From Stentor roeselii (taxonomy: Eukaryota > Ciliophora > Heterotrichea > Heterotrichida > Stentoridae): a DNA stretch of 29,815 bases. Both the position numbers and the translations under genes were made by a program. The notes beneath the pieces are model-generated. The model did not search any database. It saw nothing but the letters and a program-made list of their open reading frames with translations, and was not told where the DNA came from. Below are positions 1 through 25,599 of this stretch, piece by piece; the first letter of the stretch is position 1; each line of letters starts with the position of its first letter. The DNA is taken from positions 1 to 29,815 of the forward strand of contig RSEH01000385.1 in assembly GCA_006503475.1 (NCBI GenBank). The letters run 5' to 3'.

Positions 1-1359
1 GATCTTATGTGGAATGACCTTGTTGAATATGAAGCATATGAGTTTACCTCAAGAACCTCATTCCATCAGCTTACTTCAATTGTCTTAGAATTTATTGATC
101 AACCTCAACTTGAATCATTAGCCAAGCCTCGACTATCCAAGTATCTGAATTATTTATTGTCAAAACTTTCAAATATGTGTGATATCTATACTGACACAAT
201 TGAACTTTTCACATTTATTGCTGAAAGACTTCCTGTTATTGATGATTCTGATGAAACTAATGTTATTGCTTTAGAGCTATTAATAGAAACTGGTAGATTT
301 TACCAAGTTCCAGGTGAACTTTATACCCGAAGCACTGCTCAAATAAATATAATGCAAGTCGTTAACTTGCAGGATTATTTGATGCCTATCGCATTGGGTA
401 ATAATGAAGTGAAACTCAGGAACTCTGGTCTCAATGAAAACGCAATAATCAGATTAGCTGCTGGTACATTTAGCTCTTCTTCAAATTCAGATATAATCCA
501 AATCAGTGTGACTAGTTCAAGCTACATGACCGATGATAGCACAGAAGATTACGAAACTATTCAAGAAATGAACGCGAAGGATGAGGGCTGCATCATTGTT
601 ATGAAATACACTGGATTAAGCAAAAATGAAGTTGGATGTGCTTCTTTCAATGGTGAATGGGTGAATGAAAACTGCAAAGTCATCTCTGCTTCAGAAGATA
701 CTGTAGAAATAAGTGTCACTAAAAGTGGTACTTACAAGATTGTGAAAGCAGACAATGAAAATGAATCAAGTATTTTTCCGAATCTTTATATTGTTATTAG
801 TCTTGTCATTCTTTGTGCCTTGGCTATGCCTTTCATGGTTTACGTGGACAAGAACACTCTTTACATGAACATTCCTTCTCAATCTGCCACCAGCAGATCA
901 GGATTAGATGGAAAGTTCAGTTCAGAATACGGAGGAGAATATTCAGAAGACTCAATTTTCTCAAAGCACTTACTCATCAGCATGTTTATCAATGCTCACG
1001 ATATTCCAAGATCAGAAAAATTACTGACAATCATAACAAACATTGTCTTTGGAATTTTCATTCAAAGTGCAATGCTTGAATACTTGAGCATTCACAAAGC
1101 CTTGATAGGAGTGATCAGTGCATTGATTGTTTTGCCTCTTAGTGTGACAATAATCACTTTGATTAGATTCAGAACTAGTAAATTGGCCAAGATTATCGGA
1201 ATAGCTTTGGCTGTTATTTTCATGAGTTTCAGTGTCGTTGGAGTTTACATACTTGGTTCGACTAGCTTGTGGTACATCGCATTTATTTGTGGACTTGGAA
1301 CTGAATTTGTTGTTTCTCAAAGCATCATTATGGGTTTAAGACAAATTTTCAACTTTTAG
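1..1359 (+). CDS. Polycystin-1/REJ-like multi-pass membrane protein, C-terminal part (5' truncated)
   Basis: The frame is already open at base 1, so the gene starts outside the window; the first ATG is at 7. About 452 residues are visible, ending in TAG. Numbering from that ATG, residues 1-250 look extracellular. Around 195-246 there is a GPS-like stretch (C195, C211, W218, C223, then Ser/Thr-rich strands ending SGTYKIV) just before the first membrane segment (about 257-280). A polar cytoplasmic loop follows, then a patch reading SKHLLISMF plus PR, and four further hydrophobic segments to the C-terminus. GPS-like motif, membrane span, loop with a conserved H/PR patch and several more spans is the order known in polycystin-1 and in the large REJ/PKD-like surface proteins of ciliates. 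No PLAT domain is visible and the second GPS cysteine pair is missing. The family call is inference; a membrane protein is certain. Confidence 0.6.
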   Translation, partial: DLMWNDLVEYEAYEFTSRTSFHQLTSIVLEFIDQPQLESLAKPRLSKYLNYLLSKLSNMCDIYTDTIELFTFIAERLPVIDDSDETNVIALELLIETGRFYQVPGELYTRSTAQINIMQVVNLQDYLMPIALGNNEVKLRNSGLNENAIIRLAAGTFSSSSNSDIIQISVTSSSYMTDDSTEDYETIQEMNAKDEGCIIVMKYTGLSKNEVGCASFNGEWVNENCKVISASEDTVEISVTKSGTYKIVKADNENESSIFPNLYIVISLVILCALAMPFMVYVDKNTLYMNIPSQSATSRSGLDGKFSSEYGGEYSEDSIFSKHLLISMFINAHDIPRSEKLLTIITNIVFGIFIQSAMLEYLSIHKALIGVISALIVLPLSVTIITLIRFRTSKLAKIIGIALAVIFMSFSVVGVYILGSTSLWYIAFICGLGTEFVVSQSIIMGLRQIFNF

Positions 1360-2120
1360 ATAAGTAAAGATTTTTAAGTTTTATTGATGGAGGTTTTTTA
1401 TGTTGATTATTTAGAGGATGAAATATTTATGTTGGGATTGAATTAGGATTTTAGATTTTTAGAGTAGTTTGAATTAATAGCTTTCTCTAATTCTTTGAAT
1501 AGTAAGGGTTTATAGGTATTGTTTTTGAAAGATAATGGTATTTTAAAGATAAATGATATAATGTTTGATTAAAGATAGTTAAGTATGCTTGATAAGTTTT
1601 TAAATGCATATTTAGAATACTTGCATTTAATACTTAAATACTAAGAAGCTTTGAAAATTATTACTTAAAGACATCAATTTTTACGTAATTCACATAAATT
1701 TGAATATTTTGATCGATACACATATTTATTTACTCTCTCCAAATGATATATCAAATGAAAAGGAATCTATGCCCTAAAATTATTTTGATCCTCTTCTTAT
1801 GATAGCCCATAATATTTTTAGAATTATTCATACCTTATATTAGATTAAATTTATTCAACCTCTTATTGAATCATCATTCAATTCATTAAAAAATATCGAT
1901 CCAATCTCCTCACTTTCATCGAAATCACAGAAAATTCCTAAATCAAGAAGTTGAACCAAAAGTTCTCATGAAGCCATTTCGAGTTAATTCAAAACTTTAT
2001 TGATGAAAATCGTAAACCCTCTGTGGATCATCTGCCTGTCAATACCCGTCTTCATTCCCTAAAAGTTTTCAAATCAGTGAACCTAAGATAAATAAAAACA
2101 AATTTCTTGATTTTGGAATT

Positions 2121-2280
2121 TAGAACAGGTCTATCCTTGTTTCAAGCTTCTGCTGAAATACCTTAATGAAGCTTAAGTGAATGTTCAGGAAATGCCAGGT
2201 TCCTGATAATCACATCTGCCTGGTAAGGCCGTGACTACTGCAGCTTCAGTGAGATGAGCTAGGAGGTCGGTTCTGTTCAT
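2121..2280. ncRNA. Candidate structured RNA, island 1
   Basis: This 160-base island has 71 G+C (44%) in DNA that is otherwise far more AT-rich. Complementary segments nest into one coherent fold. GAACAG (2123-2128) pairs with CTGTTC (2273-2278), with further C-G and G-T pairs inside. Within that closing stem are three hairpins: AAGCTTC/GAAGCTT (2144-2150/2168-2174), TGCCAGG/CCTGGTA (2193-2199/2219-2225, one wobble) and ACTG/CAGT (2237-2240/2247-2250). An alternative hairpin CAGGAA/TTCCTG (2186-2191/2200-2205) competes with the second. A T6 run lies about 30 bases downstream on +. No known RNA class (tRNA, U-snRNA, SRP, RNase P) could be recognised, and the strand is undecided. Confidence 0.35.
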
Positions 2281-3735
2281 ACGAAAAGAATGCAAAATCA
2301 TTAGAAAATTTATTTTTTATGTTCAATTAGTCTCTTAATGTAAGTACTTTCTTTTTGCTTTATTCGTTAAGAAATCATGCTGAAATGCCAGACTGAGAAT
2401 ATACTTTTTAGTTCTTTTTTTAGTTAAAATGATCGGTTTATAGATATCTTAATATTGAATGTGATTAAATTTTAAAGGCTTCAGCTAAGAATGTTGTAAA
2501 TCTGGGTATTTTAGTTCAAAAGTTTTCAATAATAACTAGCTTTATGTCAGAATGAAAACTTTTTGAAATCAACTCCAATGTATTCACTTTCAAGGTCATT
2601 TTAAAAAGTTCTTATTCTCAACTCTTCAAGACTAGAGCTGATTACCTTTCAGTAAATTTTCAATCAATAAGCACCTCTATTCCTAAAAAATCATCAGAGC
2701 CTGCAATAAAATCCTTCTAATTTTATCTTCCTTCAATATAAATATTCTTTATATGAAAAAAATTTACTCCTCTGAACGATCTTGTGAGTGCCTTAAGAAG
2801 AAATTAGGAGGAACCCAGAAAACTTTTAAAAGATCTGAGCAAGGTGTTTCATTAAAATCAAAATTTCTACCGTTCGATCATTTAAACATCTTGATAAATA
2901 ACAACACGAACTATGTTTATTTAAGTGTACTTAGGCCATATGAACTTACATAAAATCATACTATTATATTTTTATTAGTTACTTAATATATTACCTCAAA
3001 ATAAATGATTTTTTATTTAGGGCTATCATGTAAAAATCATAGTGAAGATTGAATATTTCTATTCAGAAATATTTTAAATTCTAGAAGTTGGGGTGGAAAA
3101 TTTGAAATTAGAAGTTTTGGTTTGACTTTGCAGAGAGTTTTACGACTTTCACAATTTTGAAAATTTTCTTCTGTTTACTGTAGAGGAAAAGATCGATTTG
3201 TAGAGAGTTTCTATGCTTCTTGGCGCATTTAGTATGATTATTGAATTATATATAAAATTATTTTAAAGCAATCTCAAAAGCCTATTTCAAGCAGTAGTCA
3301 CTTATAGTAACCCTAGTTTCGAATGACCTAATCAATTATAATTTTAGGGTTTTGGTAATTCGTATCATATGCAATTTACTTATTGATACTCTATAAAAGA
3401 AAGTATTTTGACACTAGATTAAGAAAGACTTGTGATTATTTATTAAAGATTTCTTGATTTACAATTAGACTTAGCTCTAAAGAATTAAAATATCTAAATT
3501 ACCGTGAATAGAACTTACAATATTTCTGATTTTAGTTGAAGTGTTTTTTTATAAGAATATTTAAAAATTAAAGGAATTTATAAGAGATGATACTCAAAAC
3601 AATGAAGACTTTAATTATTTATTATGATATATATGGTTAGAAAATAAAGGATAATTTTAATCGAAGATTTATAATTGGAATAGAAGATCCATCAATTTAA
3701 TTGTTATTTTACTTAAAAAATCACCTTGAAGAGAT

Positions 3736-3900
3736 ACCAGAAACTGGGTTGGCTACAGGCCCTATCCTGTGGTTCCACAGCTTTTGTAGAACTTTCGTAG
3801 TTCCCACTTCGTTCTTGATTTTTATCATCAAACTGAGCCTTTTGAGCTCAGATTTGATCAAGTCCAGGTTTGCTAAATAGTTGGCCTGAGCGGTTTGAAT
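3736..3900. ncRNA. Candidate structured RNA, island 2
   Basis: A second GC-richer island. Its best element is an 11-bp stem with one bulged A: TCAAACTGAGC (3828-3838) pairs with 3846-3857 around a 7-base loop, extended after a bulge by CTTGA/TCAAG (3814-3818/3858-3862). Flanking hairpins are CTACAGG/CCTGTGG (3753-3759/3766-3772, one wobble), GAAC/GTTC (3789-3792/3800-3803) and CAGG/CCTG (3865-3868/3885-3888). A run of six A (about 3715-3720) just left of the island would be a T-run terminator if the RNA were transcribed from the minus strand. No RNA family was recognised. Confidence 0.35.
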
Positions 3901-6300
3901 GATTGTTAGTTAAGGGGAAAAGGGATTCAGTTTAAAAGATCATCAATATTGGGATCTATTGATCTAAGCCTTTATCCATAGGTTTCTATTATCTCAATAA
4001 TCTTTACTCAGACTACTTGATTCAATCCGGATATAATATGGAACACGCTTTGACCTGATAGAAAGATTTTACTTAATTAGGAGTCCTCTCATTGTTCCTC
4101 AATGACTTTCATCAAAGTATCATTCCTTGAATATCTTATTCTATGAACACAAATCATATGGGTCTGATCTAGTAAACAAGGGGGGATATTCTGAGAAGAT
4201 GAGAGATAATATGTCATTAGGAATTTTTTTTTCTTTTTAGGGCTAGATTCAATAAGAAGAAGTTTTGAAAGTTCCTTGAACTTGAAAGAGCTATGAATAC
4301 TCTTATTCTTATCTTCAGATTCTCAATTCTTGTTGTATTTTTAATTTAATTTTATAGTTAGAAAATTAGTTTGAATGGAAAAATGGATGAAAATTCGTTA
4401 GGATTTAAGTTTTTTTAGCTTAAAAATGATGTTTTATAATAACTAGGATAATCTAAGGGTTTTTAAATTGAGGAACGGCCAGTTGAACGAATTCCAATTT
4501 TTCAATAAATCAAGAAGCCAGTTCTTTAAGCTGCTCTATTCAAAAATTCATAAGGTTTGAAAATTAAGAAGCAGATGCCTATTGAAATAAGTAGCCTGCT
4601 GCCAGGGCAAGTCTTCTCGGTAAAGTTTTCGAAATAACTTTTGACATATAAAAACTCTAAAGTTTTAAAGTGAGCTCTCATTTCAGCCCAAAAACTAAAT
4701 CAGGTCTTTGATTCCATTTGATGTTCTAAAAAGAAAGCTCGACTCTAACAATCTCTTATCATGACTCAAACTTTTCCTTATCTTCTCTTTCTGTTTTAAG
4801 AGACGATACTTAAATCGAGTCCTTTGCTTTGATCTAGTTTTTTGAAGAGAGCTTTCCTCATAAAGAAACAAAAAATTGTTTTTATTTCCTTAAACGAAGG
4901 CAGACTGCAGAGATCATTACTATCTAGTAAAAGAATTAAATATATATGATATCATCTGAAGCTGCCTTAACTTAACCTATTTTTCTGCAGGATCTCTTGA
5001 TGGAGAGTTTTTTCCGACCATTAAAATAAATCAAATTGTTGACTTTGATTCATTTAAAAGCTAAAATTGAATTTTAGGCATCTTTTTAATTTGAAGAAAA
5101 GTCGAAGATGTGCACTTACTTTTTGGATTTTCTTCTTTGATAAAACAGCAAAAAAGATATGATTGACCTTTAAAGAACTCGCAGAAATATTCAAAAACTT
5201 TACTAGCATATTTCAACAGTTTTAATTAAGAAGTAATTTTGTTCTGAATGTTGATATCTTTGAAAATGAAGACTAAACTTAAAAGAGGTACAAAAAAAAG
5301 AAAATCATTTAAAAACTTTCAATCTAATTATTTAGGATCTGGTATGAAGAAGGTTTAATCAACCTAACTTCATCATTTGATATTATCAGGAAAATCTACT
5401 TATTATTGAACTGATTTAAAAATGTGAAAAGTTAAGAAGAAAACTAATAGAACTATTTTTGGATGCTAAAGCTTGAGAGATTTTTTGTTATTTTATTATA
5501 TGGTCTAATTATATGGCTATGAATTCAGCTTTTTTTTGATAAAAATGCACCCTGCTGAATTAGATATGTCAAGATAATTTTTACGCATATTATATTGAAT
5601 GTAAAGAGAAATATTCTGATTTTTGTTTTATATTTGAATATAGTATACTTTTTGTAAAGAATTACAATGTTTGCTATGAATCAAGATATGTTTATAATTT
5701 TTAATTGATTACAAAGTTTAGTTTTTTTTAATTTGACGACTTCTCCTCTTATCAAAGGGTTTTAGATGCTTACTGAACTTTAATGGAAATCTAAAAAGTA
5801 AACATGGAAATATCTGAAGTCGCCCTGAAAATATTGAGATCAATGTTTCATGAGAAAAAGGGAGTAAAAATTTCTCTTGAAGATTAATCTAGAGAACTTA
5901 AAAAATTTAGTTTGATTAGTTGTTTATATGGATTATGACTTTCTAATTCGGTAAAAATAGTCGATAAATATTTTATTCTACTTTTTAATCAACTATGAAA
6001 CTTTTATATGAGTTCTTTTTAACATTTTAATAAGCATAATTCGATTCTAAGTAATGAACTCTTAGTTTTTCTTTGAAATTTATTAAATTTGAGAACTTGA
6101 GCAATCTATTCCTAAAGTTTAGTTAGAGAAAAGTTTAATTGATAATTTTGGTGAAAGGAATAAAAATGATATAATTAAAATCACTTTACAAATATTAAAG
6201 GTAGAAAAATAGATAGAATCAAAATTTATGTATTTCCTTAATTTAATTTTGAAAAAAGTATAAATAATGTTGTTTACCAATTTTTAAATTCTAATCATGA

Positions 6301-6565
6301 AACTATCCTTTTCATATTATTCCTCTAGATATTTATCTGAAAATTTTTGAGAAATACTGAAGAATCGACTTTCTGGAAAATTTTAAAAATTTTTAGAGCA
6401 TTTGGATATAGAAGCTTTTTATTAGAAAGATAAACTATACTTTAACTATTATTCTCACAATATTTATCCGAAAATTTATCGAGATGTGCAGAAAAAATCA
6501 ATTTAATAAAATAATATAATGAAATATAAACACAGCCTGGATATTTAAGCTTCCCTATTTGAATA
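6301..6565. repeat. Diverged direct duplication, two copies of about 132 bp
   Basis: The segment starting AACTATCCTTT at 6301 matches the segment starting AACTATACTTT at 6433. Shared blocks in the same order include TATTATTC, ATATTTATC, GAAAATTT and, about 105 bases in, GGATAT followed by AAGCTT (6404 in copy 1, 6539 in copy 2). The nearly constant offset (132-135) argues for an old tandem duplication rather than scattered AT-rich chance matches. No third copy was seen on either side. No function is evident. Confidence 0.5.
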
Positions 6566-6885
6566 TAGAAATGATTTAGCTAAGATTTACTCCTGGCCAA
6601 AAGACATCGAATTAAATAAGAGAGAACTTAATATATGATAAATTTGAAGCTAATTGAAATACAACGACTTGTAAACTAATATCCAGTATCTTGGCCTTAA
6701 AGTAGGTCATCAGAAATAATTCCAGTCATTTTTCTTTCAGTTGCCTTCAGCTATCTTCTACGTCAATACAATCAGAGAAAAATAAGAAAACCTTATAAAT
6801 AATTCAACATCAAATCGATAAATATCAAAAGACATCGTTCACTGACCCATCAAAACATGATCTTTCCATAATCCTAAAAAAAATG

Positions 6886-7024
6886 CTAATTTTTCACCCA
6901 AATTAAAAAACCCCTAATAAATCCTCCTCTTCTCCCTCTCAACCATTCAACCAATCCCAAATCCCTTAAATCCTCAAAAAAATCTCTAAAATTCCTCAAA
7001 CTCCACCAAAATATCAAAATTCCT
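6886..7024 (+). promoter_or_regulatory. G-free 5' flank of the CD36-like gene
   Basis: 139 consecutive bases contain no G on the + strand and are rich in A and C, with CT-rich runs near 6920-6940. The tract ends 40 bases before the ATG of the downstream gene. Its position suggests promoter or 5' leader sequence. What the bias does is unknown; it resembles the G-free stretch at 24440-24638. Confidence 0.4.
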
Positions 7025-7031
7025 GACGTCA
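7024..7031. promoter_or_regulatory. TGACGTCA palindrome upstream of the CD36-like gene
   Basis: A perfect 8-base palindrome identical to the classical CREB/ATF (bZIP) site lies 33 bases before the ATG at 7065. It marks the edge of the G-free tract. An E2F-like TTTCCCGC is at 7052-7059. Short motifs like these can arise by chance, and no binding evidence exists here, so this is only a candidate. Confidence 0.25.
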
Positions 7032-7064
7032 GTAATAATCTCACTGACAAATTTCCCGCTGATA

Positions 7065-10000
7065 ATGATAAAACGTCAATGGGTAATCGGAGGCTGTCTG
7101 ACCTTCTGGTGCATAGTCTTCCTTCTAATCGCAGTCCTATCGCCAATAATCCTCTCAGACCTTCTCGAAAAGAAAATAAAAGATTCCATCACTCTAACCA
7201 AGTCCAACAAAGAAAAGCTTTGGGGAAAGGTTCCAGGTGACTTAAAAGTGAAAATGTTTCAAAGTTTCCAATTCTTCAACATTTTAAACCCCGAAGACGT
7301 GATGAACGGTGAGCAGCCTTTGATCGAGCGTAAAAACGGCTACGTCTACCAAGAGTTCGACGATTTCCAAAAGATTGACTGGGAAAAGCGACACGGCAAG
7401 AAACTGGTCAGGTTCCACCTGCTGCGTTACACAAAAAAGACGAACAATGCAAAGTGGCCTTCAAACGTTACGCCTGAAGACCAGATCACTCAAGTCAGTG
7501 TTGGAGCCTTCGGCGCCTGGTTTCAGTTAAAACATTTGACAAGACAACAAATCGCTCTTTCTGTACTTTTTCAGATAGTCAATGCAATGGAAACTTCTTT
7601 GTTGAATACTGCCTACAGCCAGGTCGTCTTGCCCTTGCTTGGAGGCTTTCGAGGGGCTTTTCAGTTTATTTTCCAACCGGCTGGCATTTCGCAGGAACGG
7701 GCTGAAAGCATCTGGAATGACAGGTACTACGGCATGGGACTCAATACGACTAACCCTGTCTGGGTCCAGGCTTTGATGGAGAATGTGTTTAATGATACTT
7801 TTGTCTTAACTCACCCTATTACTGGAACGATTTCTCTGCTTTGGTCGTATTTCGGACTCAGTGATTCGGAACTTAAAGCGATTTTTTCTGGGCATTTTAA
7901 AGATTCTTATGATTTGGCTACTATTTTGTTCTATAATAATTATGAATGTCCTGATAACTTTGAGACACCTTTTAATTGTGACCCGATTTATCTTGCGTCT
8001 TTGCAGTGGACTTTTTCTGGAGTCACTTTGTTTCCACCGTTTATGGCGAAACCTTCGATTTCTATTGCGAGTGTCAATGATACCACTACTGGGTACCCTG
8101 AACTTTATTATTTTTTTGAAGAGACTTCAGTGAGGCAAAAGTATGGAAATTATAATTTTACACTTGATGATTATCAGTCATTGTTTTTTTATAATAGGAA
8201 AAATAACTTCCCGCTTTATAGCAAATATACTTTATTGGATGTTGGGAAAATGAACAAGTTTTTTGATTGGGCTTATAAGGGAAAATTTGATTTGATCTCG
8301 GATATGTTGAATTTGGGATCGGAAAATAAGGCTAGGATTCTTTGGGATTATATTAATGCTTTGATTGATTATACTGCACTTCAGGGAAGGTTTGATCCTG
8401 ATGTTTATAATATTGACAACCGCGGAATGACGCAAGAACTTTCGATCGGTGTTCTAGGAAGTCAGACCCTTTACAGCTTACTAGTAGAAATGTCAGAAAC
8501 CTTACCACTGGGCATATCAAGTATATACAACCTTCAAAGGATCTTTCAAGACAATTTAGAATGCACAACAGCCGTCTCAGAAATCCTATCCTCTGAAAAT
8601 GCCACGATTTGCTCAACCTTCGAACTTGAATGGTCTCCTTCAAGCGACGGCATCTCTCAATGGATAAGCACTTACTGGTCCGATGTGAATTCAACATCCT
8701 GGTGGACTTTCCAAAACCTTTCACAATTAACCTACCCTGAAATGTTGAAACTATTCAAGACAAGTAACAACCTGACAAAAAACTTCGAAAAATACGACTT
8801 AGAACTGAAAGTAAATTACAAATGTGAAAATATTGGCCCAAGATGTGACCCAATGTTTTTAGCAAAAATGCAATGGGGTCAAAGTCTAGTCACTAACAAC
8901 CTTCCCAGTATTTTACAGAAAATTCACGTGAAAAACTCAACAACTATCACAAACTACCAGAACCTTTCCATGGGTCTGAAAGGTACTCCTGAGTACTCTT
9001 CTTTCATCAAGTCAAGAAACATTGAAGCTGAACTTTCCTTATCTTCAGTTGACTTTCTTTTAAGTTTTGAAGGTATTTTAAACCCTTTAGTAATTCAGAA
9101 GTTTTTCCTGTTCGAATTCGAGCGAAATTACGAAGGTCAAAAAAAATTACTGAAAATTGAGATGCCGGAGGCGATGATCGAGTACTTAAGATACACAGTC
9201 GACCTCTACGCACTTGGAGGTCTTATCAAGACGAAGACTGTGAACCAGATTCTCTTCGCTGACTACACCGAGCCTCTGCTGAGCAAGTCGAAATACATGA
9301 GTCCTCTGCTGGGTGGAAACCCTTCGATAAACCTGAACTCGACAAGCCTTGCACAGAACATGACTCAAGACCACTTCAAAAACATCAGCGAAGACATGCG
9401 TGACGGAATGGACACAGGCGAGCAGGACTCAAGTGAAGTGAGAAGGTACAGGCTTTATGGAGGAAAGACTTACATCAACTTCCTTAACCCGGCGTATTTG
9501 GGAGAGTCATCTAAAGGTCCTGTTATTTCTTATGTGAATTACAACCCCTGGCCTGAGGAAATTCAGATGATTGGAACTGATGGATGGGCTTTTAAACCTT
9601 ATCTTACAAAACATACTAATCTCAAATTCTTTCTTGATGTCGCTGGACTCATCTTTTCAGGGAATTATGATAAGAAGACTAATCAGAGGGGCTTTGAATG
9701 CTTACGATTTAATATTGGAAAGGAAAATTTTCAGAATGTCAGTTTTAATAAGGAAAATGCGAAGTATAATGCTTATGCACCTAATGGACTTATTAATTTT
9801 ACTGGAGTCTTGACGGCTCCTTTGTTTGGGTCTAAGCCTTATTATTTGGATGCTGATAAGACTTTGAGGAAACTTATTAATTATTCTGATCCTTCTCAGG
9901 TGAAACCTGAAAAATATGAGTCGTATTCTATTATTGAGAAACATACAGGTGCGGATTTTAAGGGCATGATGCAGGTTCAGTTTAATTCTGAGTTGAAACC

Positions 10001-23800: not shown

Positions 23801-23955
23801 CAAAAAAACATTACGATTGTGATTTGGAATTTTTCAATGAAAAAAGGAAAAATAAAGATGGAAAAGTTGGTTTTGGCATTGAACGTAAAAATGAATGGTG
23901 GAAAAATAATTGGGAAACCCCTGAAGAGTCGATTTTAGGACTTTTGAATAATTAA
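20803..23955 (+). CDS. VLIG/GBP-like protein with two degenerate GTPase domains and a Cys/His-rich tail
   Basis: 1050 residues, ATG 20803 to TAA. Near the N-terminus, IALVGFYGDQKA (21-32) sits where a dynamin-like GTPase has its P-loop GxxxxGK(S/T). Lys is kept but the second Gly and the Ser/Thr are not. The following strands, with DSGFYIVLNN and an SFLISICITVVP helix, keep the order of a GBP-type fold. A second copy begins around 734 (VSIIGESQS, Gly739) in the very-large-inducible-GTPase style, but the GKST of that loop is replaced by Ile-Val-Lys-Arg. Residues 380-560 are strand-rich. The tail 977-1006 has five Cys in CxxxCxxCxCxC followed by H994, H998, H1003 and C1006, a probable zinc site seen in related protist proteins. 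Both domains look unable to bind GTP normally, so a pseudo-GTPase scaffold is likely. The family call is from motif order only. Confidence 0.55.
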   Translation: MDYKYPFDEKLTEFIAGNAEIALVGFYGDQKALQAALALYLDHSFTLDSGFYIVLNNAKTRAGLVYSSGFDNFYKENEQAKIFVSFLISICITVVPCLSRFHVENWYFSENAFLRSHFNRTFKTISAEKLNFLSLSLKESFKIKNSELNLSHLFISKGFAYEFKDSFNNPDSLIQLKRLTSQLILDIFQGNLKENELFSKFYIFLNEIDCMVYCKPEKIKEVFETLQDLYLKYCSEIPQIYSNMCDLIKEELFDNTQKLTMSIELKNESIFDEFKTKIMKKPKDLNSERIKKIFMGLMKSYLEPNELIYAETLINQKMQEAHREAYSIRECIKKKALEKVSALEAFLIRQGLIISQYNLKELSKSTTDIKANEVNITTSTHLGKIKTIKTMTNQNFACLFENYEVGISNLVLFSNGVDYVHQVLQGVNFDIAEGSTEDFLVIIDNSKYLISVFAVEENYFVLKFEKTSETIMNFSHFLNLSLEMVYIDDQGRFNIIDLTSKDPRRFYNLTHFAINTSCYSEKFLMVNVCEDSQLMCIRINKQLMIFHRYDDLIFKLDINPSQFKKAFILMVNSKYLLVIVNKSNSQVCEIIFDKFKQDRTYRNYIIDVLEDATLSILNKFLVKCKEIRVFIDSEHTPDNISAYFSILKTANQYFKIMNDFITEDLFTPSMTLQCLSKTLLQYSSYKLFEPAPFRLLLKSEVINSKHHPIVNQIQDQLQFGYFESEFFKMDSVIFVSIIGESQSIVKRVLQSIFHVDVFALEEGGFMYYSNIQGNNFAVLAVVLRHTELTSSSLKIYEFITALSDIIILPVWMKSHEHVPRIISELFYCSRRIDESRYYHFKLEYLVFDWNENKHNFVYESLSRVPVEAYVALFGYCESVTYFSECLIYQKRLIGLKQRYSGKDLITNIKLVLSQVTTGDTHSQDYWIYKNLSSISKWKGEICEEKNGICDHEVNIINNEFKQVPIFLRLSHSENHLCAERCFKCSCYCQLEIGHFGLHSSKKHYDCDLEFFNEKRKNKDGKVGFGIERKNEWWKNNWETPEESILGLLNN

Positions 23956-23968
23956 TTAGAATTTTTAT

Positions 23969-24451
23969 TTATAGGAGTTGGTGTTGGCAGCTTTGGAAAG
24001 GATGACAAGAAAGTTTTTCAATGTTTGAGTAGTTGAAAAGTGAATCTGGTTTTTCAAGTGTTTTAAGACTTTTGTACGAAACTTTAGATAGAAATAAACG
24101 GATTGAGTCGGAAAGATTTTCTATATGCAGAAGAAGGTCAGCGAAAAGGGAGTCAAGAGTTTTGTTTGAAATTCCTATTTCTTGGATATTTACTCTGAGG
24201 TTAATGCAAACTTTTTTCAATGCTGAGAAATGGATGAACTTGGCAAGACCTTCTATAAACAATGCATCGTTCTTCATTCTAGTGAAATTTCTGTTTATGT
24301 AACTGTTCAAAATCGACCTAGAAACTTTTCTAATTTCTTGATTTTCAATTCGATGTAGAAAATTATTCACTTTTTCCACGTCCCCAAAAGTATTCATTAT
24401 TTTTTCTAACTTGAATAAAATGATTCTAGATCCATTCTGCTTATTCTCCAT
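23969..24451 (-). CDS. Small helical protein of unknown function
   Basis: 160 residues from ATG 24451 to TAA. It is predicted almost wholly helical, with heptad-like leucines (LDSLFADLLLHIENLSDSIRLF) and no membrane segment or signal peptide. No family was recognised. Its stop is only 13 bases from the stop of the convergent pseudo-GTPase gene. Its start shares a 185-base, completely G-free (+ strand) divergent spacer with the next + gene. Confidence 0.65.
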   Translation of the reverse strand: MENKQNGSRIILFKLEKIMNTFGDVEKVNNFLHRIENQEIRKVSRSILNSYINRNFTRMKNDALFIEGLAKFIHFSALKKVCINLRVNIQEIGISNKTLDSLFADLLLHIENLSDSIRLFLSKVSYKSLKTLEKPDSLFNYSNIEKLSCHPFQSCQHQLL

Positions 24452-24638
24452 TATAACCCATCTTACACAACCAATATAACTAAAAATAAATAAATTCTAA
24501 CCCTATAAAAACCTAAAAACCTTAAAAAATCTTAATCAAAAATAATTATTCTCCAACACCCTCTAAACCTTTAAACATCCTAAAACCATTTCAACCAAAT
24601 CACCATCAATCCCTATTCCAACCCTTCAAAAAATAAAT
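24440..24638. promoter_or_regulatory. Divergent promoter region, 199 bases without a single G on +
   Basis: From 24440 to 24638 every + strand base is A, C or T; the first G is the third base of the ATG at 24637. The stretch covers the whole spacer between two divergent genes (24451 on -, 24637 on +) plus a few bases of the minus gene. It should carry both promoters. Repeated short elements such as AAACCT and AACCCT are visible, but no defined factor site can be named. Confidence 0.45.
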
Positions 24639-25599
24639 GGAATCTCTCCAACAAGACCTCGAGATCCTATCCCGAGACTACTCAATTTTCCGAATCTCGA
24701 ACAAATGGCGTTCATTCCGTTACTCCTTGAAATCCTGCGAATTATCTTCAATCCCCGAAGACTTCATAAAAATCCAGCGCGAGTCACTTTCAGTAGTCGA
24801 CTGTTACCAGCCTTCAATTCTTTTAAAGCGTCAAGAAGTGAAAAGGTCATCATCACTTTTATCAGAAATCCAAAAACTCTGGGTAAGTTTGAACCCTTTG
24901 AACCTTCGAAGCATTTCAAAGCAGGTTTATTTGGTGGTCATTGAATTGCTTTATAAACAGTTTCAAGCTGCTCAAGGAAATCCGGCTTTGGTCCCTGTTT
25001 GTGTCGCTCAAGACTGTGAAATTGACTTTAAGGATAAGAATTGTCTCACTTTTGCGGAGTTTTATGATGTTTTGTTTGAGATTATTGATGCGCTTTGTAA
25101 AAGTTCACTTGTTGGTGAGTATTCTAGAATTGTTTTTGTTTTTAAAATCAATTTGCTTAACTCGCTTCAGTTTAGATCTCTCAATCTTTGTAGCAAGCTT
25201 AATTTGGCTGAAAACTCTAGGGCTTCTTTTCATCCTTGGATGCAAAAAAGTAGGGCTTCTTCACCGGAGAGGGAAAATGAAAGGTTGCCTGGAATATTTA
25301 AAACTATGTCTAAGGAAGAATTGGCTCCGAAGTTTCTTTCGAGGGTTACAGTCAGAGTGATGAGAGACAATCATCCAATAAAATGGGACTTACAAAAGTT
25401 AATCCAAAGAAAATCCTCACCAAGCAGGTCAATAACTCCACTACTGCCATCAGTAAAAAAATCATCAAGCACAAGACGAGTAGATCTAAGACGAAAAGAC
25501 CCTCTATCAATAACCCCAATGAAAGAGCGAAAAGACACTTTTTTATTAGAAGAAGTGATCGAAGAAAGAAGCAAAAAACCATTCAAGAAGCTTTTTTGA
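24637..25599 (+). CDS. Protein with a protist helical domain (FxDxLFExxD type), basic tail
   Basis: 320 residues, ATG 24637 to TGA, the only TGA stop among the genes here. Residues 95-175 hold a helical block: QVYLVVIELLYKQF, then CEIDFKDKNCLTFAEFYDVLFEIIDAL, then EYSRIVFVF. This matches by pattern a domain found in many protist, often cilium-linked, proteins, where an EF-hand-like D-x-D-x-x-x-x-x-L-x-x-x-x-F stretch leads into FxxxLFEL-D. The function is not established. The last ~120 residues are Ser/Arg/Lys-rich and probably disordered. Codon endings switch from 21 C / 5 T in 24640-24786 to 4 C / 30 T in 25051-25197, then back towards A/C after 25380. The stop lies 10 bases from that of the next, convergent gene. 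Confidence 0.65.
   Translation: MESLQQDLEILSRDYSIFRISNKWRSFRYSLKSCELSSIPEDFIKIQRESLSVVDCYQPSILLKRQEVKRSSSLLSEIQKLWVSLNPLNLRSISKQVYLVVIELLYKQFQAAQGNPALVPVCVAQDCEIDFKDKNCLTFAEFYDVLFEIIDALCKSSLVGEYSRIVFVFKINLLNSLQFRSLNLCSKLNLAENSRASFHPWMQKSRASSPERENERLPGIFKTMSKEELAPKFLSRVTVRVMRDNHPIKWDLQKLIQRKSSPSRSITPLLPSVKKSSSTRRVDLRRKDPLSITPMKERKDTFLLEEVIEERSKKPFKKLF

Follow-up and report, generated by a model that had tools for sequence, protein, structure and literature searches.

A 199-nt G-free run at a gene start as a probable extreme of gene-edge strand asymmetry

A run of 199 nt without a single G, at positions 24440-24638 of the forward strand, is probably the extreme tail of a strand asymmetry that recurs at gene edges in the sequence sampled from this genome, a judgment that applies to the classification as gene-edge skew and excludes the cause discussed below. 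The rule that describes the asymmetry is the same at gene starts and gene stops: the strand read 5' to 3' into the nearest gene is the G-poor one. The run is ordinary in kind, and what is notable is the strength of the asymmetry and its presence at starts and stops alike. To the best of our knowledge, there is no consensus on what causes strand asymmetry at the ends of genes.

Genomic Material and Gene Calls

The window, as the term is used here, is the whole stretch of 29,815 nt that was analyzed; it is one entire contig of an AT-rich genome of 44.4 Mb in 522 contigs. It belongs to a non-random sample of 30 loci totaling 309,815 nt, for which, in addition to the window, 20 loci from the starts of contigs, 2 from the ends, and 8 from the interior had been requested. 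Two loci were dropped before counting, one that is part of the window (L001) and one (L011, C210:1-10000) in which 9,818 of the 10,000 bases are N. Loci L032-L037 served solely as upstream regions of paralogues, and the telomere run of locus L015 was left out of the periodicity, orientation, edge-composition, and word counts. Genes were called as ORFs with a minimum length of 100, 120, or 200 aa, without introns or transcripts, and their starts are ATGs rather than transcription start sites. A run counted as far from genes if no called ORF edge lay within 150 nt of it.

Telomere unit, genome size, AT content, and stop codons together indicate that this is probably the macronuclear genome of a heterotrich ciliate. 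Contig C330 begins with repeats of CCCTAACA, given as the telomere unit of the heterotrich Blepharisma (PMC9942806), and long ORFs in the sample, read in the standard code, stop with TAA (72), TAG (47), and TGA (14). A search of the window for tandem CCCTAACA repeats found none. Introns of Blepharisma are described as peaking at 15-16 nt (PMC9942806); no GTA..TAG peak at 15-16 nt was found here.

Results

The 199 nt of the focal run comprise 91 A, 54 C, and 54 T on the forward strand, and the reverse strand of the same stretch is C-free. This is what a sequence-only reading of the contig had reported, together with the judgment that such a run is implausible by chance, and both statements hold. 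The run is the longest G-free run in the window, followed by one of 139 nt at 6886-7024, whereas in Markov copies of the window (100 copies for each of orders 1, 2, and 5, 300 in total) G-free runs reached at most 77, 72, and 75 nt, respectively. The run is therefore real and far beyond chance. It contains a TATAAA word (24504..24509, forward strand) 127 nt before the end of the spacer in which it lies, which is a pattern match only. Neither repeats nor repeated words were found in 24300-24800, no RNA family reached its gathering score in 23900-25000, and no periodicity near 10 nt was visible across the sampled G- or C-free runs.

The sequence-only reading had also held that the run exactly fills the spacer between two divergent genes. 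That spacer, measured between the first ATGs of the two ORFs, spans 24452-24636 (185 nt) and does lie wholly inside the run; the fit is inexact on the left, where the run extends 12 nt into the start of the left ORF (24440-24451), and on the right the ATG itself, with its G, inevitably brings the run to an end. For the right-hand gene (24637..25599, forward strand, 320 aa) the run lies on the strand that reads into the gene and obeys the rule. For the left-hand gene (23969..24451, reverse strand, 160 aa, first ATG at 24451) its polarity is wrong, which counts against the reading as gene-edge skew. Since the run has the wrong polarity for the left gene and is the sole start-edge exception among runs of at least 80 nt, its fit to the divergent spacer looks incidental. 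It should be noted that the run touches both genes and is an exception by a tie-break, the script having assigned it to the left one.

Both flanking ORFs look like genuine genes, because each matches other places in the genome without internal stops. The left ORF has a paralogue at C83:66379-66771 (33% identity, E 2.6e-19) and 2 further weak matches, and the right ORF matches 10 further places, 9 of them with E below 1e-9. Searches of both ORFs for Pfam families at E 0.01 returned none, a search of solved structures found no match to the right ORF, and NCBIfam searches of three ORFs gave two matches, both far below cut-off. The gene at 24637-25599 thus belongs to a family with 10 other genomic places and neither a Pfam nor a solved-structure match. 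The starts of 5 of these 10 places were compared over the 100 nt before the ATG. Three are C-biased (CG skews of +0.85, +0.91, and +0.55) and two are not (-0.20 and -0.09), and the two without skew count against the reading as gene-edge skew; the corresponding value for the left-gene paralogue is +0.28. To judge from these upstream sequences, a C-biased patch is recurrent in the right-gene family yet dispensable. An alignment of the focal run with two paralogous upstream regions was too weak to use.

Long runs without G or without C recur in the sample. Noncoding DNA holds 75 runs of at least 60 nt, where Markov copies average 5.9 (order 1), 8.2 (order 3), and 8.3 (order 5), and 19 runs of at least 100 nt, against 0 in 30 Markov copies, in which the longest simulated run was 92 nt. 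The sequence-only reading had proposed as its own test whether such runs are equally common within coding or random positions after matching for composition. In the sample, the frequency of runs of at least 60 nt was 0.70 per kb in noncoding DNA, as against 0.049 per kb for coding DNA, and each class exceeds its own Markov copies, the coding class with 10 runs against 0.4-0.7. The focal run is the longest in the sample, followed by runs of 156, 152, 145, and 139 nt, and naive scaling from this non-random sample suggests about 2,700 runs of at least 100 nt genome-wide. At the mean G content of start edges (.097) a run of 185 nt would be very rare, and the edges therefore differ widely among themselves. 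Two runs of other composition or build were also seen: a 145-nt G-free run of irregular AAAAATCACTT-like repeats between two forward-strand ORFs (L031, 6489-6633), and a 58-nt T-free run over a AAAGAGCAA-type repeat in an ORF cut off by the end of the window's contig (29612-29669).

The orientation of these runs follows the gene beside them. Profiles over 99 starts and 98 stops show a sense strand that is enriched in C on both sides of the ATG, and in G at the stop and immediately beyond it. Of 36 runs of at least 80 nt, 3 are mostly coding and 6 are far from ORF edges; among the remaining 27, the strand reading into the gene is the G-free one in 25 (13 of 14 at starts and 12 of 13 at stops), the two exceptions being a repeat-like run in locus L026 and the focal run as assigned to its left gene. 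Without the window the count is 22 of 23, and without the window and loci L019 and L027 it is 14 of 15. At lower thresholds 40 of 48 runs obey (at least 60 nt; 90 runs in all, of which 11 are coding and 31 far) and 52 of 62 (at least 50 nt; 159 runs, 35 coding and 62 far). These counts were made on the same data that suggested the rule, and the fresh material consists only of the later paralogue upstreams, in which 4 of 6 are clearly or mildly C-biased and 2 are not. The far runs, 31 of 90 at the 60-nt and 6 of 36 at the 80-nt threshold, are not explained by the rule in the form applied here and weigh against gene-edge skew as a complete account.

Within the window, the second G-free run (6886..7024, forward strand) ends 40 nt before the start of a forward-strand ORF at 7065 and obeys the rule at a start. 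Two C-free runs on the forward strand (1354-1480 and 1494-1587, together 1354..1587) adjoin the stop of a forward-strand ORF ending at 1359 and obey it at a stop. Between these two genes lie 5.7 kb (1360-7064) devoid of ORFs of 100 aa and mostly of 25-30% G+C, with the long C-free runs at the left end and the G-free run at the right end.

Mean CG skew of the strand reading into the gene is +0.294 +- 0.052 at 79 starts and +0.216 +- 0.053 at 73 stops. Its extent at starts is about 150 nt outside and about 200 nt inside the gene; at stops the outer part averages about 50 nt and the inner part spans several hundred nt. The polarity relative to the gene is thus the same at both ends, and the differing extents leave exact symmetry unsupported. 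Across 87 complete ORFs divided into tenths, CG skew at third codon positions (all third positions, not only fourfold ones) declines from +0.21 in the first to -0.10 in the last. Divergent spacers (n = 19) average -0.177 at the left and +0.446 at the right edge, and tandem spacers (n = 41) -0.232 and +0.313. Convergent spacers (n = 16) are weak (-0.147 +- 0.093 and +0.150 +- 0.097), and in six long ones the left fifth (+0.04) is contrary to the rule. The weakness of convergent spacers speaks against the classification as gene-edge skew, as does the overall AT skew within coding DNA near stops, which has the opposite sign.

Edges appear to behave singly. Among 150 edges, 20 have an into-gene skew of at least 0.8 and 2 a skew of -0.8 or below. 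Flank skew correlates with that of the adjacent third positions (rho 0.29, n = 150), whereas no correlation links opposite sides of one spacer (rho -0.12, p 0.29, n = 75) or opposite ends of one gene (rho -0.004, n = 38); the skew thus seems to be organized in local patches that extend across the coding boundary. A gene-level property such as expression was rejected as the source of the skew because gene ends are uncorrelated.

On the strand reading into the gene, edges of 76 spacers contain A.383, C.174, G.103, and T.340, against A.361, C.139, G.139, and T.361 in the interiors of 36 spacers, and the edge values are the same within.003 without the window. G+C is unchanged (.277 at edges,.278 inside), the gain in C equaling the loss of G. 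Outside genes the strand reading inward is also somewhat A-rich, so that the outgoing strand is rich in G and T. CG and AT skews correlate in noncoding DNA (r 0.28) and hardly in coding DNA (0.07).

Discussion

The edge skew looks very like one described in yeasts and not like a new kind of promoter. For most unicellular fungi, McLean and Tirosh (PMC3315797) describe "opposite GC skews at the 5' and 3' ends of genes". The coding strand there is biased to C near the start and to G near the stop, with skew entering third codon positions and both flanks, and these features were found here as well; a weak relation to expression level also belongs to the fungal type. Besides coming from a probable ciliate, the present case differs in that single edges saturate, with runs of 100-199 nt that lack G or C, unlike the fungal skew as reported in that paper, and in that the flanks here carry an into-gene A bias where the A-over-T skew of fungi is given as flat. 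The fungal account also assigns the two ends to different phases of transcription (PMC3315797), whereas the pattern here looks like one gene-relative rule. GC-compositional strand bias has likewise been described around transcription start sites in plants and fungi (PMC555766), and C exceeds G near gene starts in both cases; here, in contrast to what that description covers, stops are skewed too and starts are ATGs. Among ciliates, nanochromosomes show an intrastrand base-composition bias beside telomeres (PMC2633312, PMC7858049, PMC3558436) that shares with the present case a strand asymmetry in noncoding gene flanks. As presented in these sources, that bias is tied to chromosome ends and in Nyctotherus is a purine bias, symmetric between the two chromosome ends, whereas the present one lies inside contigs, the focal run being about 5 kb from the contig end and not adjacent to a telomere, and sets A+C against G+T. 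Among the matches listed in our literature search, no title concerned strand skew at internal gene edges of ciliates with large chromosomes, and absence from the literature is unproven.

The cause of the edge skew is likewise unproven; we favor exposure of the outward strand as single-stranded DNA, with selection as the main rival. Besides an R-loop or nucleosome-free signal, the sequence-only reading had offered a strand-biased mutational process. This is supported in that the asymmetry is real, recurrent at many loci, and oriented, with mutation as a candidate process. Cytosine deamination alone was rejected: C to T change by itself would cut G+C and leave into-gene C as before, and the data show constant G+C and raised into-gene C. 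Combined C to T and A to G change is characteristic of animal mitochondrial DNA exposed as a single strand for long periods. It is possible, and this is our tentative preference, that the outward strand is often single-stranded beside gene ends and that both C and A are deaminated there. Exposure could arise, for example, if this strand were displaced as polymerase leaves the gene, by read-through transcription at stop edges and by divergent antisense transcription at start edges. Deamination of C to T and of A to G on that strand would lower C and A and raise G and T at constant G+C. Some edges would run to saturation, and the focal edge would have been stripped of every G over 199 nt. The compositions of edges and interiors fit such a paired loss, and selection would also accommodate them.

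A transcription-linked cause meets a difficulty in ciliates. Their germline nuclei are regarded as transcriptionally inactive (PMC6935857, PMC3416858), and transcription in the macronucleus should then not shape the inherited sequence. For the fungal skew, transcription-coupled mutation and selection on elongation have been offered as explanations, and cytosine deamination is disfavored as the main cause (PMC3315797).

Selection needs no germline transcription and could operate in the macronucleus, and we regard it as possible, if doubtful. The outward strand, rich in G and T and free of C, would be kept because outgoing transcripts form R-loops or pause on it and end early, thereby insulating closely packed genes; at starts, a G-free sense strand could also provide an unstructured leader. 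Outward transcripts would meet the same polarity at starts and stops, the spacers are short (medians of 421-704 nt), and the focal run is mostly unpaired in a predicted RNA structure. An unstructured leader cannot account for stop edges, however, and selection of either kind sits poorly with a skew that extends into third codon positions and is absent from two of the five right-gene paralogues. Nor do C and A tracts in the runs exceed shuffles, C tracts of at least 3 (G tracts on the outward strand) numbering 144 against 152 +- 6.7.

Breakage offers another route to exposed outward strands. Double-strand breaks in spacers, followed by resection, would leave outward 3' single-stranded tails that mutate, and the polarity expected is correct on both sides of divergent, tandem, and convergent spacers. 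Breaks centered on spacers were rejected because no correlation was seen across spacers, and the 5.7-kb ORF-poor spacer of the window carries its long runs at the two ends and not in the middle; we consider breakage unlikely.

Still less probable is a promoter class or regulatory element defined by the absence of G, which the sequence-only reading had put forward. The G-free into-gene strand at nearly all long start-edge runs and the strong upstream C bias in three right-gene paralogues would suit it. It is weakened by the finding that stop edges share the asymmetry with the same polarity, which leaves a promoter-only mark unsupported; two of five paralogues also dispense with it, and the region holds no repeated words.

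Degenerate telomeric sequence, or sites of telomere addition between genes, is very improbable even though Blepharisma is reported to have many alternative addition sites (PMC9942806), because the excess of telomeric 6-mers over all runs (72 against 46.0 +- 8.2 in shuffles) is due to locus L019 alone and disappears without it (39 against 38.0), which led to rejection of telomere-like words, and because the focal run has 4 such words against 1.9 expected, a count matched by 85 of 500 shuffles. Locus L019 (C450, 9180-9550) itself contains, beside a gene start, telomere-like GGGTGTTA units that form an irregular interstitial array with a spacing of about 40-60 nt.

Implications

In a ciliate, whose germline nucleus is regarded as untranscribed, it may be, although we put this forward with some doubt, that gene edges independently acquire strand-asymmetric and sometimes saturated patches with a G- and T-rich outward strand, in the same polarity at starts and stops. 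Should patches arise in a silent germline, the account of fungal skew by transcription-coupled mutation cannot be general, and the patches would have to be made either by a germline process local to gene edges or by selection for signals that terminate outward transcription. Ciliates separate the germline from the DNA that is transcribed and thereby make transcription-coupled mutation directly testable, and near-saturated patches of the kind described here expose the skew signal gene by gene. The case also shows that even a conspicuous G-free run can be something other than a regulatory element.
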